Source: an uncultured PS1 clade bacterium (lineage in GTDB: Bacteria > Pseudomonadota > Alphaproteobacteria > MED-G09). Taken from it: a stretch of DNA of 34,987 nucleotides. The notes beneath the pieces were generated by a model. It was not told the origin of the DNA and did no database searches. It saw nothing but the letters and a program-made list of their open reading frames with translations. The stretch lies in NCBI GenBank assembly GCA_902609025.1, contig CACLQD010000010.1, positions 1 through 34,987 on the forward strand. Direction: 5' to 3'. The position numbers and the translations under genes are program-made. Positions 5,841 through 10,384 of the stretch are shown here, piece by piece. Positions within the stretch are counted from its first letter, which is position 1. Each line of letters starts with the position of its first letter.

Positions 5841-6446
5841 TTATGATTTTTGAGGATTTATACCTCTAAAAGTACTGTAATATTTTTGAATATAGGCTAA
5901 ATCTTCTTCACTATTGCCAGTAGGGTTAAAGATATTTCCTATTTCTATACTTTTAGTTGGCGCATCAATAGAAATTAATAAAATTTTTGAATGTGTTTGT
6001 TTGGCTATTCTCAAAAAACCTGTTTTCCACCTCTTTACCTTCTTTCTAGTTCCCTCAGGGGTCATAGCAATAACAATACTTCTTTCTTTTTTAACTATAT
6101 TTATAACATTCTCGATTAATGATGACGGATTATCTCTATAAACAGGAATTCCACCAAGCCATTCAAAAAACTTTTTAAAACCAGGTTTAAATATTGAATG
6201 TTTTCCAAGCCATCTTACCTTAATATTCAAACCAAAAATTGCTAACATAGCCAAAATAAAATCCCAATTTGATGTATGAGGAGCAGCAATTATCACTATT
6301 CTCTCTTCATCAGGAACCTTTCCCTTTATTGTCCAGCCAGATATATTTATTCCAAATCTAGCAATTTTTCTTAATATTTTAGATCGACTACCTCTCAATC
6401 TTTCAGGTATTTGACTTTCAGAAATTCTTATAATTTTTCTTATCAC
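5841..6446 (-). CDS. PlsC-like 1-acyl-glycerol-3-phosphate acyltransferase family protein
   Basis: The protein carries the HxxxxD acyltransferase motif as PHTSNWDF, about residue 57 from the GTG start. Downstream it has the block GGIPVYRD and then the phosphate-binding block TPEGTRKKV. These are motifs I to III of the PlsC/LPLAT superfamily, here in the short (about 200 residue) form. It probably transfers an acyl chain to a lysophospholipid or related acceptor at the inner membrane. I chose GTG at 6446 because GCGGGA sits just upstream. An upstream TTG (6461) would start inside the att-like repeat and has no ribosome-binding site. This gene appears to be what followed guaA before the insertions, or else an older cargo. 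Confidence 0.8.
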   Translation of the reverse strand: MIRKIIRISESQIPERLRGSRSKILRKIARFGINISGWTIKGKVPDEERIVIIAAPHTSNWDFILAMLAIFGLNIKVRWLGKHSIFKPGFKKFFEWLGGIPVYRDNPSSLIENVINIVKKERSIVIAMTPEGTRKKVKRWKTGFLRIAKQTHSKILLISIDAPTKSIEIGNIFNPTGNSEEDLAYIQKYYSTFRGINPQKS

Positions 6447-6447
6447 T

Positions 6448-6464
6448 TTATTCCCGCTCAATAG
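6448..6464 (-). repeat. att-like site, copy 4 (distal boundary of the guaA array)
   Basis: On the plus strand it reads TTATTCCCGCTCAATAG. Compared with the guaA copy it has T for the first C and G for A in the 7-bp spacer. In the GuaA frame it still spells I-E-R-E-stop. The flanking bases on the right (ATAGTATAAATAAG...) resemble those beside copy 3 for about 28 bp, including an ACTATT hexamer 14 bases from the site. The acyltransferase GTG start lies one base beyond the encoded TAA. Confidence 0.75.
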
Positions 6465-6502
6465 TATAAATAAGAAATACTATTATTCTTCAATAAATAA
6501 AA

Positions 6503-6610
6503 TTAAATACTATAAAAATTAACACCAATCATAATTCTATCTGTTTTTCCATTATTGAAATGGTTAAGAAGATTCTTTTTTTCATTAACTATATTAATAT
6601 CAAAACCTCC
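6503..6610 (-). pseudogene. Possible 3' stump of a lost cargo gene
   Basis: Between att copies 4 and 3 there is no intact gene. On the minus strand a 35-codon open frame without a good start begins right after copy 3 and ends at TAA (6503-6505). It reads GGFDINIVNEKKNLLNHF followed by NNGKTDRIMIGVNFYSI. Its composition and beta-alpha pattern look like the C-terminus of a real protein, for example a methyltransferase, rather than random AT-rich DNA. This is a judgement by eye with no identified parent gene. The rest of this 168-bp unit is AT-rich with nothing else recognisable apart from a GAGGAGG ribosome-binding-like run at 6606-6612. Confidence 0.3.
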
Positions 6611-6615
6611 TCAAT

Positions 6616-6632
6616 TTATTCCCACTCAATAG
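6616..6632 (-). repeat. att-like site, copy 3
   Basis: It reads TTATTCCCACTCAATAG on the plus strand, differing from the guaA copy only in the outermost base; the shared stretch extends one or two bases further (AGTA). In the GuaA frame it encodes T-I-E-W-E-stop, identical to the end of GuaA. An ACTGTT hexamer lies 14 bases to the right (6647-6652). It separates the methyltransferase unit from the 168-bp remnant unit. Confidence 0.8.
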
Positions 6633-6746
6633 TATACATGAAAATAACTGTTATTATTAAATAACTTATGAGGACTTTTTTCAAGTATGTAGTAGATTTT
6701 TCATTAAATTTCACTCAATTTTCATCATAATTTTTCTGTGGATAAG

Positions 6747-7541
6747 TTAGAAAACAGCAAAAATGGAATCTCGAGCAGAGGAAGAATTTCTACCAAAGAA
6801 ATCTACATAAAAATTATCTACCTTGTATAAATTTTTAGCCTTAGACAAAAAACTTGATATTTCTTTAACTTTTATTCCACTATCCTCAACAACTAAATAA
6901 TCTCCTTTTTTTAAAAAAATATCAGTTTTCAATAAAACATTTTCAACATTTACATGAGCATCCTCGATAACAAGTATTTTCTTATTATGAAATTTAGTAT
7001 TAGGAAAATTATCTCTTAAATCAATTTCTTCAAAAGAGACGCCTAAGTATTCAAAACTTGGTTTTTTAATATCATAGCTATAAATTTCAGTGTTCAACTT
7101 CATAGACTTAGTTAGATCAGCTAACCACATTGCGCTTCCTCCTGAACCTGAACCATATTCAATAATAACTTCAGGCTTAATCTCAGAAATTAGTTGCATA
7201 TAGATAATCATATCAAATGCGGTTTTATATAAATCATAATTATTCCATTTTATGGTTTCATATGTGCCTTGGGACATTTCAAAAGTGAATTGATCTAAAC
7301 TAGAGTTGTTACTTGAAAAAGGACATTTTGTCTCTAATCTTGATGAATATGATGAAAACCTATTTTTTTTATTATCCCAAAGATATTTAAAAAGTTCTCT
7401 AAATCTTGCAATTGCCTGACTTGAATTACCAAATTTATTTTTAATTGCTAAATCCATTACCAAGTTGTCAAAAAAAGTAACATTCCCATCTTGTTGTTTA
7501 ATTTTTTCTTTTAGGTTTATCTCTATGTCTTTTTTATCCAT
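6747..7541 (-). CDS. CmcI-like SAM-dependent methyltransferase / cephalosporin hydroxylase family protein
   Basis: From the ATG at 7541 this gives 264 residues. The core has EYGSGSGGSAMWLADL, a SAM-binding glycine loop like the EIGSGSGGSA of the CmcI/rhamnosyl O-methyltransferase family. It is followed by a second strand (YSYDIKKP), then KILVIEDAHVNVENVL and DYLVVEDSGI, the paired acidic strands of that family. Related proteins methylate sugars or antibiotic intermediates; the substrate here is unknown. An in-frame ATG at 7589 would add 16 residues encoded across the att-like site, but the 7541 ATG sits one base after the site-encoded TAA and uses GTGGGA as ribosome-binding site. It is very AT-rich. 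It is cargo of the second unit at guaA. Confidence 0.75.
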   Translation of the reverse strand: MDKKDIEINLKEKIKQQDGNVTFFDNLVMDLAIKNKFGNSSQAIARFRELFKYLWDNKKNRFSSYSSRLETKCPFSSNNSSLDQFTFEMSQGTYETIKWNNYDLYKTAFDMIIYMQLISEIKPEVIIEYGSGSGGSAMWLADLTKSMKLNTEIYSYDIKKPSFEYLGVSFEEIDLRDNFPNTKFHNKKILVIEDAHVNVENVLLKTDIFLKKGDYLVVEDSGIKVKEISSFLSKAKNLYKVDNFYVDFFGRNSSSARDSIFAVF

Positions 7542-7542
7542 T

Positions 7543-7559
7543 TTATTCCCACTCAGTAG
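7543..7559 (-). repeat. att-like site, copy 2
   Basis: It reads TTATTCCCACTCAGTAG on the plus strand, with an identical 7-bp spacer (CCCACTC) to the guaA copy and one change in each arm. In the GuaA frame it encodes A-T-E-W-E-stop. An ACTGTT hexamer lies 15 bases to the right (7575-7580), matching the position of the same hexamer near copies 3 and 4. Confidence 0.75.
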
Positions 7560-7689
7560 CAACGTAGTTTTTAAACTGTTTAATATCAAGTGCTTAATTC
7601 AACCTCATAGTGCGTGTGTAACTAATGTTTAAACCACCTTCATATTGCACGCTTTTCTTACCTCTACGCTTCTGTTGCTTTTCAATAGT

Positions 7690-7836
7690 TCACACAATCT
7701 TTGGCTGCACAATGTACAACCTATTTTGTTCGGTTTTGGAAAGCTCGCTTAGCTTGCGAGTTTTAGCTTTATTACTTTTAAGTAAGTCTCGCAGCTTAGT
7801 GTTTGGTTTCTTCTGCTTGTCATGCCATTCGCTCAT
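7690..7836 (-). CDS. Possible small basic protein (48 residues), unknown function
   Basis: The frame begins MSEWHDKQKKPNTKLRDLLK and ends at a TGA (7690-7692). It is strongly basic and polar, with a Lys/Arg-rich middle (SNKAKTRKLSELSKTEQNR). The frame continues after the TGA for another 32 codons (TIEKQQKRRGKKSVQYEGG and so on) with the same basic character, ending near 7594. It could therefore be the front part of a broken gene of about 80 codons. The upstream region has no good ribosome-binding site. It lies 30 bp beyond the TPR/oxygenase gene in the same direction. I do not recognise it. Confidence 0.3.
   Translation of the reverse strand: MSEWHDKQKKPNTKLRDLLKSNKAKTRKLSELSKTEQNRLYIVQPKIV
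7740..7764. terminator. Possible terminator hairpin downstream of the TPR/oxygenase gene
   Basis: A stem of nine pairs (CTCGC with GCGAG, extended by a G-T and three A-T pairs) closes a seven-base loop. An A run precedes it and only three Ts follow on the minus strand. It could end transcription of the first cargo unit, but it overlaps the possible 48-residue gene and the T tract is weak. Confidence 0.25.
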
Positions 7837-7865
7837 CGCTTAACTCTAGGAATTCTTTGACATAA

Positions 7866-10364
7866 TCATTTTTCTCTCATATCAAATGCTAGGACGATAC
7901 GCTCTTCTTCTGATTCAAATGGAATCGTGTAGTGCATGAGGGACGCCGGAAACAAAACCACACTACCAGTAACTACATTTATTGTTTTTTTCTCGTTTAT
8001 ACGTGTACCAATAGCATCATTTTCTTCACCTAAAGAGACAACCAGATTGCCGCTATCAACCTTTAATTTCCGAGGTACATTTATGTATATACTTCCACTG
8101 AGCCAGCCTTCATTATGGATATGAGGCTTTAAATTACCACCACTTTTCATACTGATGAACCAGCCATAGAGACTGTATTCAGCTGGCATTTTTTTTATCA
8201 ATCCCTCTTCGCTCTCCTTGAATTTTGTTCGATACTTCTCTACTTCCACTCGAATGATATTTTGAATTTCATTTGTGTCATAATTTTTTATATCAAATAT
8301 ATTCCCTGACGTTTGATTACCGTTCTCTAAAAGGGTTTGTCTTCTATTCAAAATCCGGCTTTCATTAAGTATAGACTTTGCTTTTTCTACAAATATTTTT
8401 TCGAAGTCATATCGAGTATTCAAGTCATTATGTAAAACGTAATTTAATGGTTTTGCGCAGAATAAATTTGGCTTTTCCAACCCATATTTCAAGGCGGAAC
8501 GGCAGGCAAGTGAACCGATTATTGAGCTAACTTTATCCTGATTGATCAAATAGTCCAATTCATCAAAAAAAACAGACTTTTTATCTTGCAGAAACAAACA
8601 GTCCAATAATTGATTATGTGCTTCGGTATAGTCAGCCTTCAACGCTATTGCTTGTGTATAGCTTGCTTCAGCTTCGTCCAATCTTCCTAATCGTTTGAGC
8701 GTGTTACCCAAATTGTAGTGAGCTTCGGCAAAGTCAGGCTTCAACGCTATCGCTTGGTTATAGCTTGCTTCAGCCTCATTTAATCTATCCAGTTCTCTGA
8801 GCGTGTTTCCCAAGTTGCTGTGGGCGTTGGCAAAGTTAGGTTGCAACGCTATCGCTTGTTTATAGCTTGCTTCAGCCTCGTCCAATCTTCCTAATCGTTT
8901 GAGCGTGTTTCCCAAGTTGCTGTGGGCGTTGGCAAAGTCAGGTTGCAACGCTATCGCTTGTTTATAGCTTGCTTCAGCCTCGTCCAATCTGCCCAGTCCT
9001 TGGAGCGTGCTACCCAAGTTGCTGTGGGCTTCTGCGAGATTCGGTTCAATCTCCAGTGCTTTTTCAAGATACCCTAAAGCTGACTCCCATTCTCCAGCTT
9101 CCCTTGCCATAGCACCTAAGTTACTCGAGATAGCAGCTGATTTGGGATTAAGAGCTAGCGCCTTTTCGTAAGCTATTTTTGCATCTGTTATTCTTTTTTC
9201 TTGTTGGAATGCAACCCCAAGATTAGTCCATGCATTGGCATCCTCTGGAGCAAGCTCCGTGGCTTTCTCGAGAATATTAATAGCCTCACTCACTTCATTA
9301 CCTTGTCGTAAGAAATCTCCCAGCTGCACCATCAAAGCCAGGTTGTTTGGCTCATTCTTATGTGCATTTCTCAGCGCTTCAATTGCGTGAATAAGATTAC
9401 TAGTCTGGTAGTACAAAGAACCTAATAGCTGCCACGTTTGAGTCAAATGAGGTTTAAGTGAGACAGTCATTTTTGCGTCTTTAATTGCGCCTGCTGCATC
9501 CTTCGCTCGGAGTTTAATGAGTGCTCTATTTGCATACGCTTCAGCGTGATTTGATTTGGCTTTCAATATTTTCTCAATTATTGGCAGTGCTTCTAAGTCT
9601 CTTTGATTTGCTCCGAGACAAGCAGCGAGAACCAATAAACTCTCTAAGTCTTCCGGCGATTGATTGCATCCCAATTGCGCTTTTTCCAGCGCCTCTATGG
9701 TTTTAGACTGCTTTAGTAGTAATCTTGCTTGATTGCGATAGACAGAGGGAAGTTCTGAGTTAATCGATGCAGCTTCTATCAGCACTCTCTCCGCTTCCGC
9801 CTCTTCTTTATCTAGCAAGAGTACATGGGATAGCAGTGACAGAGCCTCTGGATTAGCAGGGTTATGTTGAAGAAATTTATATAGCCACTCCTGAGCCTCT
9901 TTATATTTTCCAACTTCACGCAACTCGATTGCTGGCGATAATTCATCTTGATGACTCTGTAATTGATTATCAAATTCTTGATGAGGTTTGTCGCTACTGG
10001 GAGGTAGATTAGACTGGAGCTTCTCTTCAAATATCTGCAACTTCGCTGCAGTTACTCCGGCTTGCTGTGCGTCAGATAAAACTCGCCTGGCATCATCAAA
10101 TTTCTCTGTTTTGATAAGTGCATCAATGTAACTGAGCCAAAATTGTTCTATCTTTGGATTGGCTTCAAGAGCAGTTTTGAATAATGGCAGTGCCGCGTCA
10201 GCTTTATTAACAGAGACTGCTATCACGCCTAGGTTATGGTTAGCATCGGGGTGTGCCGGCTGAGATTGCAAGATAGCTCGATAAAGACGTTCAGCATCTT
10301 GAAGCTTACCTTCTCGATGTGCGGCAACGCCTTTCTGCAGTGCTTGTTCAGTCGTTAGTTCCAT
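7866..10364 (-). CDS. Large TPR protein with C-terminal 2OG-Fe(II) oxygenase domain
   Basis: The 832-residue protein has roughly 16-18 tetratricopeptide repeats from residue 1 to about 580. Those at about 440-575 are nearly identical (LGRLDEAEASYKQAIALQP). Residues about 620-832 form a 2OG-FeII_Oxy_5-type domain: LKPHIHNEGWLSGSIYINVP gives the His-x-x-Glu-like metal site, and VVLFPASLMHYTIPFESEEERIVLAFD gives the distal His and the 2-oxoglutarate Arg. Bacterial TPR-2OG proteins are often near glycan or lipid modification genes; the substrate is unknown. No signal peptide. The ATG is 3 bp after the guaA stop, and GAGTGGGAA of guaA can act as ribosome-binding site. GC content is far above most neighbours, a sign of transfer. 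Confidence 0.82.
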   Translation of the reverse strand: MELTTEQALQKGVAAHREGKLQDAERLYRAILQSQPAHPDANHNLGVIAVSVNKADAALPLFKTALEANPKIEQFWLSYIDALIKTEKFDDARRVLSDAQQAGVTAAKLQIFEEKLQSNLPPSSDKPHQEFDNQLQSHQDELSPAIELREVGKYKEAQEWLYKFLQHNPANPEALSLLSHVLLLDKEEAEAERVLIEAASINSELPSVYRNQARLLLKQSKTIEALEKAQLGCNQSPEDLESLLVLAACLGANQRDLEALPIIEKILKAKSNHAEAYANRALIKLRAKDAAGAIKDAKMTVSLKPHLTQTWQLLGSLYYQTSNLIHAIEALRNAHKNEPNNLALMVQLGDFLRQGNEVSEAINILEKATELAPEDANAWTNLGVAFQQEKRITDAKIAYEKALALNPKSAAISSNLGAMAREAGEWESALGYLEKALEIEPNLAEAHSNLGSTLQGLGRLDEAEASYKQAIALQPDFANAHSNLGNTLKRLGRLDEAEASYKQAIALQPNFANAHSNLGNTLRELDRLNEAEASYNQAIALKPDFAEAHYNLGNTLKRLGRLDEAEASYTQAIALKADYTEAHNQLLDCLFLQDKKSVFFDELDYLINQDKVSSIIGSLACRSALKYGLEKPNLFCAKPLNYVLHNDLNTRYDFEKIFVEKAKSILNESRILNRRQTLLENGNQTSGNIFDIKNYDTNEIQNIIRVEVEKYRTKFKESEEGLIKKMPAEYSLYGWFISMKSGGNLKPHIHNEGWLSGSIYINVPRKLKVDSGNLVVSLGEENDAIGTRINEKKTINVVTGSVVLFPASLMHYTIPFESEEERIVLAFDMREK
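8641..9048 (-). repeat. Four tandem 102-bp units coding for near-identical TPRs
   Basis: Units beginning at 8641, 8743, 8845 and 8947 are exactly 102 bp (34 codons, one TPR) apart. They share long runs of identical DNA, such as the AACGCTATYGCTTG start and the GCTTGCTTCAGC block. The preceding unit at 9049 has already diverged. Identity at the DNA level, including third positions, indicates recent duplication or ongoing homogenisation. Confidence 0.9.
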
Positions 10365-10367
10365 TAT

Positions 10368-10384
10368 CTATTCCCACTCAATAG
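10368..10384 (-). repeat. att-like site, copy 1 (guaA end; CTATT / AATAG arms)
   Basis: The plus strand reads CTATTCCCACTCAATAG: perfect 5-bp inverted arms around the spacer CCCACTC. It covers the last five codons of guaA plus the TAG stop. Such short inverted arms around a 6-8 bp spacer are the core-site layout of tyrosine recombinases, and the guaA 3' end is a known target for islands. This is the anchor copy for the three further sites to the left. Confidence 0.75.

Follow-up and report, generated by a model that had tools for sequence, protein, structure and literature searches.

Repeats of the guaA 3' end with conserved flanking arms as putative attachment sites of integrase-less cassettes in an uncultured PS1 clade bacterium and other Alphaproteobacteria

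Introduction

In the genome of an uncultured PS1 clade bacterium, the 3' end of guaA recurs downstream of the gene, and the question arises as to what these repeats are, what lies between them and what the DNA beside them is for. An earlier note on the window, that is, the whole stretch of 34,987 nucleotides that was analysed, had pointed to a hexamer close to three of the repeats as a possible accessory recombinase site at the ends of inserted elements. We examined the locus in the window, in a sample of 18 genomes of its family (a search of the order returned the same 18), in other genomes of the class and in IMG/VR stretches.

Results

Cores and units behind guaA in the window

The window corresponds to a single contig (G000:C10), and the genome, of 911 kb, is 68% complete. 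The guaA gene lies on the minus strand with its 3' end at 10368, and three further cores in the same direction start at 7543, 6616 and 6448 (Table 1). The cores at 6448-6464, 6616-6632, 7543-7559 and 10368-10384 have 1, 0, 1 and 1 mismatches to the pattern TTATTCCCACTCAATAG, respectively, which at up to 3 mismatches matches 5 times in the window versus 0.19 expected, the fifth of these, a 3-mismatch match at 854, being on the opposite strand.

Table 1. Coordinates of the guaA array in the window
Feature	Position	Strand	Sequence or content
guaA 3' end, core copy 1	10368..10384	-	CTATTGAGTGGGAATAG in guaA sense; landing site
Unit 1	7560..10367	-	832-aa TPR/2OG-Fe(II) oxygenase gene at 7866-10364
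Core copy 2	7543..7559	-	CTACTGAGTGGGAATAA
Arm of core copy 2	7560..7634	-	hexamer 7575-7580; IHF consensus 7584-7596
Unit 2	6633..7542	-	CmcI-type methyltransferase gene
Core copy 3	6616..6632	-	CTATTGAGTGGGAATAA
Arm of core copy 3	6633..6746	-	hexamer 6647-6652; one repeat unit 6682-6697
Unit 3	6465..6615	-	151 nt, without a gene; hexamer 6479-6484; no 11-bp repeat seen
Core copy 4	6448..6464	-	CTATTGAGCGGGAATAA; adjoins resident acyltransferase gene 5841-6461

The gene of unit 1, a unit with a GC content of 0.41 versus 0.33 for the window, has its start codon 3 nt behind the core, and that of unit 2 has its ATG one nt behind the core and its stop where the conserved right end begins. Unit 3 is read as a cassette remnant, and the acyltransferase gene that follows the array is also present in G003, G004, G005 and G006. 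The arm of core copy 2 holds one repeat-like unit, GTTACACAC, at 7614-7622, and a related arm (84% over 56 nt) was found in G317. The arm of core copy 3 is conserved over about 115 nt with G003, G006, G010 and G016, and is 11 nt shorter than the arms in G006 and G016. The conserved right end of these family-A arms is opened in G000 (6737-6745 of the window), G006 and G016 by the DnaA-box-like TTATCCACA, and the right ends in G003 and G010 carry altered forms of it.

The hexamer and its neighbourhood

The hexamers lie where they had been placed, ACTATT at 6479 and ACTGTT at 6647 and 7575, and the distances from the core end are 14, 14 and 15 nt, in agreement with the 14-15 claimed. The further imperfect match over about 28 bp, reported for copies 3 and 4, was recovered as 20/28 at the same offset when the cores at 6448 and 6616 were taken as these copies. 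The flanks were also correctly assigned to the ends of the elements; at the guaA copy (10368), the corresponding side is guaA coding sequence. When the flanks were aligned over more copies, the check that the earlier note had proposed, conserved arms were found to extend well beyond the 17-bp core. As for the accessory recombinase site, the conservation of arms at element ends thus stood, and the choice of the hexamer as the conserved site did not.

The motif ACTRTT alone occurs at chance frequency (50 in the window versus 48 expected). At the fixed distance, the hexamer (AAYAGT on the arm strand) is present in 6 of 36 distal arms versus 0.04 expected from random 90-mers, of which three make up the discovery set and a fourth (G006, core 5804) is orthologous to the copy at 6448, leaving two independent cases (G003 and G009). 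As a stand-alone site the hexamer was rejected, being at chance frequency by itself and present in 3 of the 33 arms that come from beyond the window. In the same arms, RGTTT at a gap of 9-14 nt occurs in 14 of 36 versus 0.8 expected, and the hexamer is the edge of this position-specific RGTTT stretch, which separates the core from an IHF-like or inverted-repeat site. The candidates for arm-type sites are tandem 11-bp repeats that end 50-55 nt out from the core. These repeats could not be seen from the window, because only about one unit is left in each of the arms at 6616 and 7543, and the arm at 6448 shows none. In outline, the original observation is real, and its centre was wrongly placed on the hexamer.

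Anatomy of the arms

The arm set consisted of 29 distal cores chosen by eye, for which 90 nt of the far side were read. A tandem repeat of period 11 (at least 9/10 identical) was found between -90 and -38 at 11 of the 29 sites, compared with 0-1 of 29 at the control periods of 7-10 and 12-15 and about 0.8% of random segments at period 11; the remaining 18 sites gave no period-11 signal, and several of them may be chance cores. Kept sites that are doubtful include L063 3772, L062 9194 and 13161, L068 5977 and 6704, and L061 1004. Matches at up to 4 mismatches that were set aside as chance or coding were 31258 in the window, L055 13073, L057 13257, L056 13767, L063 19325, L059 13319 and 5195, L067 1744, L062 4613, 11198 and 12561, L066 2564, L068 14509 and all core matches of L076 and L079.

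IHF-like sites were scored against the usual consensus. With up to 1 mismatch, they were found at -36/-37 in 7 of the 29 arms and anywhere in 60 nt in 12 of 29 (versus 11.5% of random 60-mers), and the exact consensus on the arm side was found in only 2 of 29, with 0.3 expected from its 1.1% frequency in random 60-mers. On the cassette-start side, 9 of 46 flanks contained the perfect consensus versus 1.1% expected. A CCT ending at 35-39 nt is present in 13 of 36 arms versus 1.7 expected; both this and the RGTTT test were picked after viewing the alignment. The set of 36 arms is the 29 plus seven more (one from G010, three from G273, two from G317 and one from G209), some of which were found via their arms and are not independent of the arm test. 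The order along the arm is tandem 11-bp repeats, CCT, an IHF-like site or inverted repeat, and then the core. The arms of the window itself are degenerate, the copy at 7543 retaining a perfect IHF site and a single unit-like stretch. The right end of about 115 nt is common to units with unrelated cargo.

Arm patterns in genomes

The pattern AGTTACAAAAAAGTTACAAA at up to 2 mismatches gave 5 matches in the 18 family genomes, all of them 53-55 nt before a core, versus 1 for the reversed control, and CTACTACAMACTTACTACAMACTT at up to 3 mismatches gave 2, both 50 nt before a core, with 1 for the reversed form. Together, all 7 matches sit 50-55 nt before a guaA core; since both patterns were written from arms already seen, the informative part of this count is that there are no matches elsewhere. 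The combined pattern GTTACA-N4-6-GTTACA-N48-62-GAGTGGGA was then searched in 385 genomes of the class, a draw that included 5 of the 18 family genomes. As a result, 7 matches were obtained in 5 of the 385 genomes (G004 once, G014 twice, G273 twice, G317 once and G209 once), with 0 for the reversed pattern. G273, G317 and G209 belong to other families and were newly found in this way; within the family of G273, the pattern was present in 1 of 10 genomes, G273 only.

Units and cargo in the family

A guaA gene was found in all 18 family genomes, in some only as pieces, and cores at up to 2 mismatches were found in 17, 11 of which have two or more (42 matches in total versus 5 for the reversed pattern). 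In contrast, among 80 guaA loci of other bacteria, covered up to 10 kb downstream and less at contig ends, a single repeat of the locus's own guaA end was found when up to 3 mismatches were allowed, in L152. Assembly breaks tend to fall inside guaA arrays, as seen from contig ends of G006, G007, G009, G014, G017 and G273, and array lengths are therefore probably underestimates.

Twenty units are bounded on both sides, 17 in this family, two in G273 and one in G317, and they measure 0.17-4.3 kb; two of their boundaries are weak, namely G010 4487, which was placed by its arm with a degenerate core, and G004 4005, which has 3 mismatches and no arm repeat. An ORF of at least 60 aa reading away from guaA is present in 17 of the 20, with two others lacking an ORF and one having only a short reverse ORF, such as is additionally present in 2 of the 17. 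Of the 17 gene-bearing units, 8 have their first ATG 0-9 nt behind the core. The cargo of units and array stretches includes TPR proteins, methyltransferases, a GFA enzyme, a ferric-reductase-like protein, a Fic protein with a DUF4379 protein, a PDDEXK nuclease with a cytosine methylase, and a TdeIII restriction enzyme with a methylase. TPR cargo recurs (7866-10364 of the window; L055, L057, L059, L067 and L068), and several of these cassette proteins have a near-common N-terminus (MELTIEQALQ...) with differing C-terminal parts. Restriction-modification genes and Fic and DUF4379 proteins lie at L059 1-2934, L073 1575-4327 and L072 1703-5762; through such cargo, the locus can serve as a small defence island.

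Similarity of units between families and genera

A 204-aa cassette that lies behind guaA on the same contig in G273 is 98.3% identical over 646 bp to its counterpart in G008 and 93.3% over 626 bp to that in G014, with guaA identities of 66.4% and 66.7%, respectively. The identity of 98.3% between families at a guaA identity of 66.4% indicates that the units move. G273 and G014 agree in cargo and in the first part of the arm, beyond which the same layout continues in different forms, and the G008 arm is cut after one unit. Between G006 and G010, which belong to different genera, 863 bp are 94.9% identical at a guaA identity of 74.9%; more conserved yardsticks than guaA exist, since other stretches common to the genera reach 88.7%. 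G006 and G016, which differ in cargo and have a guaA identity of 74.9%, have in common a 154-nt right end at 91.6% identity.

Search for an integrase

PF00589 matches were present in 16 of the 18 family genomes (55-97% complete), and none of them was an integrase gene in or beside a guaA array. We take these matches to be XerC- and XerD-like from their neighbours; XerC/XerD were set aside as the recombinase, as the core does not appear to resemble dif. The only non-Xer-like match in the 18 genomes is an integrase with an arm-binding domain beside tRNA-Arg in G014. This candidate (G014:C24) was rejected as the partner in view of that position and the lack of a core at up to 3 mismatches within 20 kb, two being found at 4. 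The large ORF there (L365, 8921-11343) matches both Arm-DNA-bind_3 and Phage_integrase, lies directly behind the tRNA-Arg and is apparently the start of another integrated element. Among 28 recombinase loci of G273, G317 and G209, viewed with about 1.5 kb on each side, none had a core plus arms, and one had a 4-mismatch core-like match without arms.

Elsewhere in the Alphaproteobacteria, guaA-linked Arm-DNA-bind_3 integrases were found at L125, L142 and L172. Of 30 loci that came from a search of the class with an alignment of these integrases, the ten best (L375-L384) adjoin guaA, with no guaA seen at the other 20. Integrase-bearing guaA islands were rejected as sharers of the cassette arms, as their left flanks differ in sequence. 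Among 7 guaA islands viewed, most of which are cut by contig ends or by the stretch taken, a second core was present in G057 (2 mismatches), and G082 had one 2-mismatch match without such arms.

Fourteen IMG/VR stretches matched the core pattern, with guaA at L111, L113 and L118 by protein check and apparent guaA ends, judged by eye, at L116, L117 and L121; L113 and L116 contain an integrase-like ORF by a rough motif, and their flanks are unlike those of the cassettes. The arm patterns gave 19 and 23 stretches, in which no core at up to 5 mismatches lay behind the arm, the best having 6 (L362), and the alignment of guaA integrases retrieved 2 relatives. The left-arm 18-mer gave at least 120 stretches, and among the matches listed nearly all are without an integrase nearby. 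Two of these stretches, L267 and L317, carry the cassette start-side motif (core, then AATAAAATCAATAACTTA) in the same orientation directly behind the 3' end of a tRNA, which ARAGORN called as tRNA-Met and tRNA-Ala, respectively, with an integrase-like ORF close by. L236 and L237 resemble them by eye, and at L280 an adjoining tRNA-like stretch, also recognised by eye, faces the other way; ARAGORN called no tRNA in these three. The integrase ORFs near the IMG/VR tRNAs were recognised by motif and eye, with family models run on L237 only. In these small numbers, the start-side motif behind tRNAs fits attL-side DNA of integrase-bearing elements, and the 18-mer AAGTTATTGATTTTATTG abutting the tRNA 3' end may represent an IHF site that tRNA integrases generally have on the attL side. 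No cognate integrase was identified by these searches, and we claim no named integrase family.

Discussion

On the evidence of the cores and arms, we consider it likely that the cores are att sites of a tyrosine-type integrase at the 3' end of guaA and that the flanks are the distal arms of integrase-less cassettes. A short core, separate arm-type repeats and a site for a bending protein, which make up the att anatomy of tyrosine integrases, all appear to be present in the sequence. The typical cassette consists of a core, a start codon at once (in about half), one or a few genes and an arm of about 75-115 nt before the next core, and the typical arm consists of tandem 11-bp units, CCT, an IHF-like site or inverted repeat and an RGTTT spacer that holds the hexamer site. 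A tyrosine integrase brought by a visiting island or phage would bind the 11-bp units, and IHF or another bender would fold the arm. Recombination within GAGTGGG(A) would then allow cassette circles to enter guaA or the cores of the array, resulting in accretion, and the same integrase could also excise cassettes, the genes of which would be co-transcribed from guaA. We put forward more tentatively, as a possibility, that this is a guaA-anchored, integron-like system with attP-type sites, in which mostly promoterless single genes of defence, surface and enzyme classes would be exchanged between families of AT-rich Alphaproteobacteria, with a visiting element providing the integrase only in trans.

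An alternative is that the arrays are scars, that is, decayed guaA islands that lost their integrase in place and are no longer mobile, as could be expected from several degenerate cores and arms (the G010 core, the G008 arm and the window copies with one unit), from the window unit without a gene and from the failure of the above searches to find an integrase. We regard this as unlikely, because two families with a guaA identity of 66.4% have in common an integrase-less unit at 98.3% identity, and 863 bp are 94.9% identical between genera at 74.9% for guaA and 88.7% for the best other common stretch, values which indicate that units of such form moved recently. It is very improbable that the core owes its retention to a role as ribosome-binding leader and that the likeness of the flanks is AT-rich noise: although ACTRTT alone is at chance frequency and cores often lie directly before start codons, the arm patterns occur only at cores in the 18 genomes (7/7), the signal is at period 11 and absent at other periods, and the reversed combined pattern was absent from 385 genomes, and as an account of the arms this explanation is largely refuted. 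Integron-type cassettes with attC sites would likewise be mostly single genes read in one direction behind an anchor, and 8 of the 17 gene-bearing units here have a start codon that follows the site by 0-9 nt, but the probability of this explanation is negligible, as the sites resemble attP arms, the single-stranded folding of 7 arms gave inconsistent z values of -2.65 to 2.17, one below -2, and no IntI integrase was recognised among the PF00589 matches of the 18 genomes, which were judged without an IntI-specific model.

With the cores read as att sites and the flanks as cassette arms, we file the arrays, as judged from sequence comparison, as a probable variant of cis-mobilisable, att-bounded units (CIMEs), since cores and arms form attL/attR-like boundaries at the end of the host gene. 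In a study of Dehalococcoides, 15 of 31 ssrA islands are without an integration module and were suggested to be cis-mobilisable, and they resemble the guaA arrays in having tandem units bounded by repeats of the 3' end of a host gene, with extra conservation beside the repeat (PMC3146451). For those islands, a serine recombinase is proposed and integrase-bearing sister islands are described within the same array (PMC3146451), whereas the guaA cassettes have attP-type arms, use guaA, measure 0.17-4.3 kb with mostly one gene, and no integrase-bearing sister was found for them. The integrase of GIsul2 is described as acting on guaA-type cores with a common GAGTGGGA and as also excising the CR2-sul2 unit, and the likeness thus includes the guaA 3' end, the core GAGTGGGA, which the arrays have, and one integrase on several att sites (PMC9376610). 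In that account, GIsul2 is a large resistance island of Shigella and E. coli with its own integrase gene (PMC9376610), unlike the cassettes, for which no integrase gene of their own was found and which are likened to it here by the core and not by the arms. The guaA islands of other Alphaproteobacteria (L125, L142, L172 and L375-L384) have the landing gene in common with the cassettes, together with an integrase type that uses arm sites, and differ in having their own integrase next to guaA and left flanks unlike those of the cassettes. Our literature search found no paper that deals with guaA cassettes of single genes.

The arm sequences provide exact probes with which to look for cassette circles and for the missing integrase, and the question of what moves these genes is therefore directly testable. 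The arrays suggest a route by which bacteria with small genomes and few mobile-element genes could gain single genes at a fixed address, and the genes gained at the guaA address include those of restriction-modification and Fic type.
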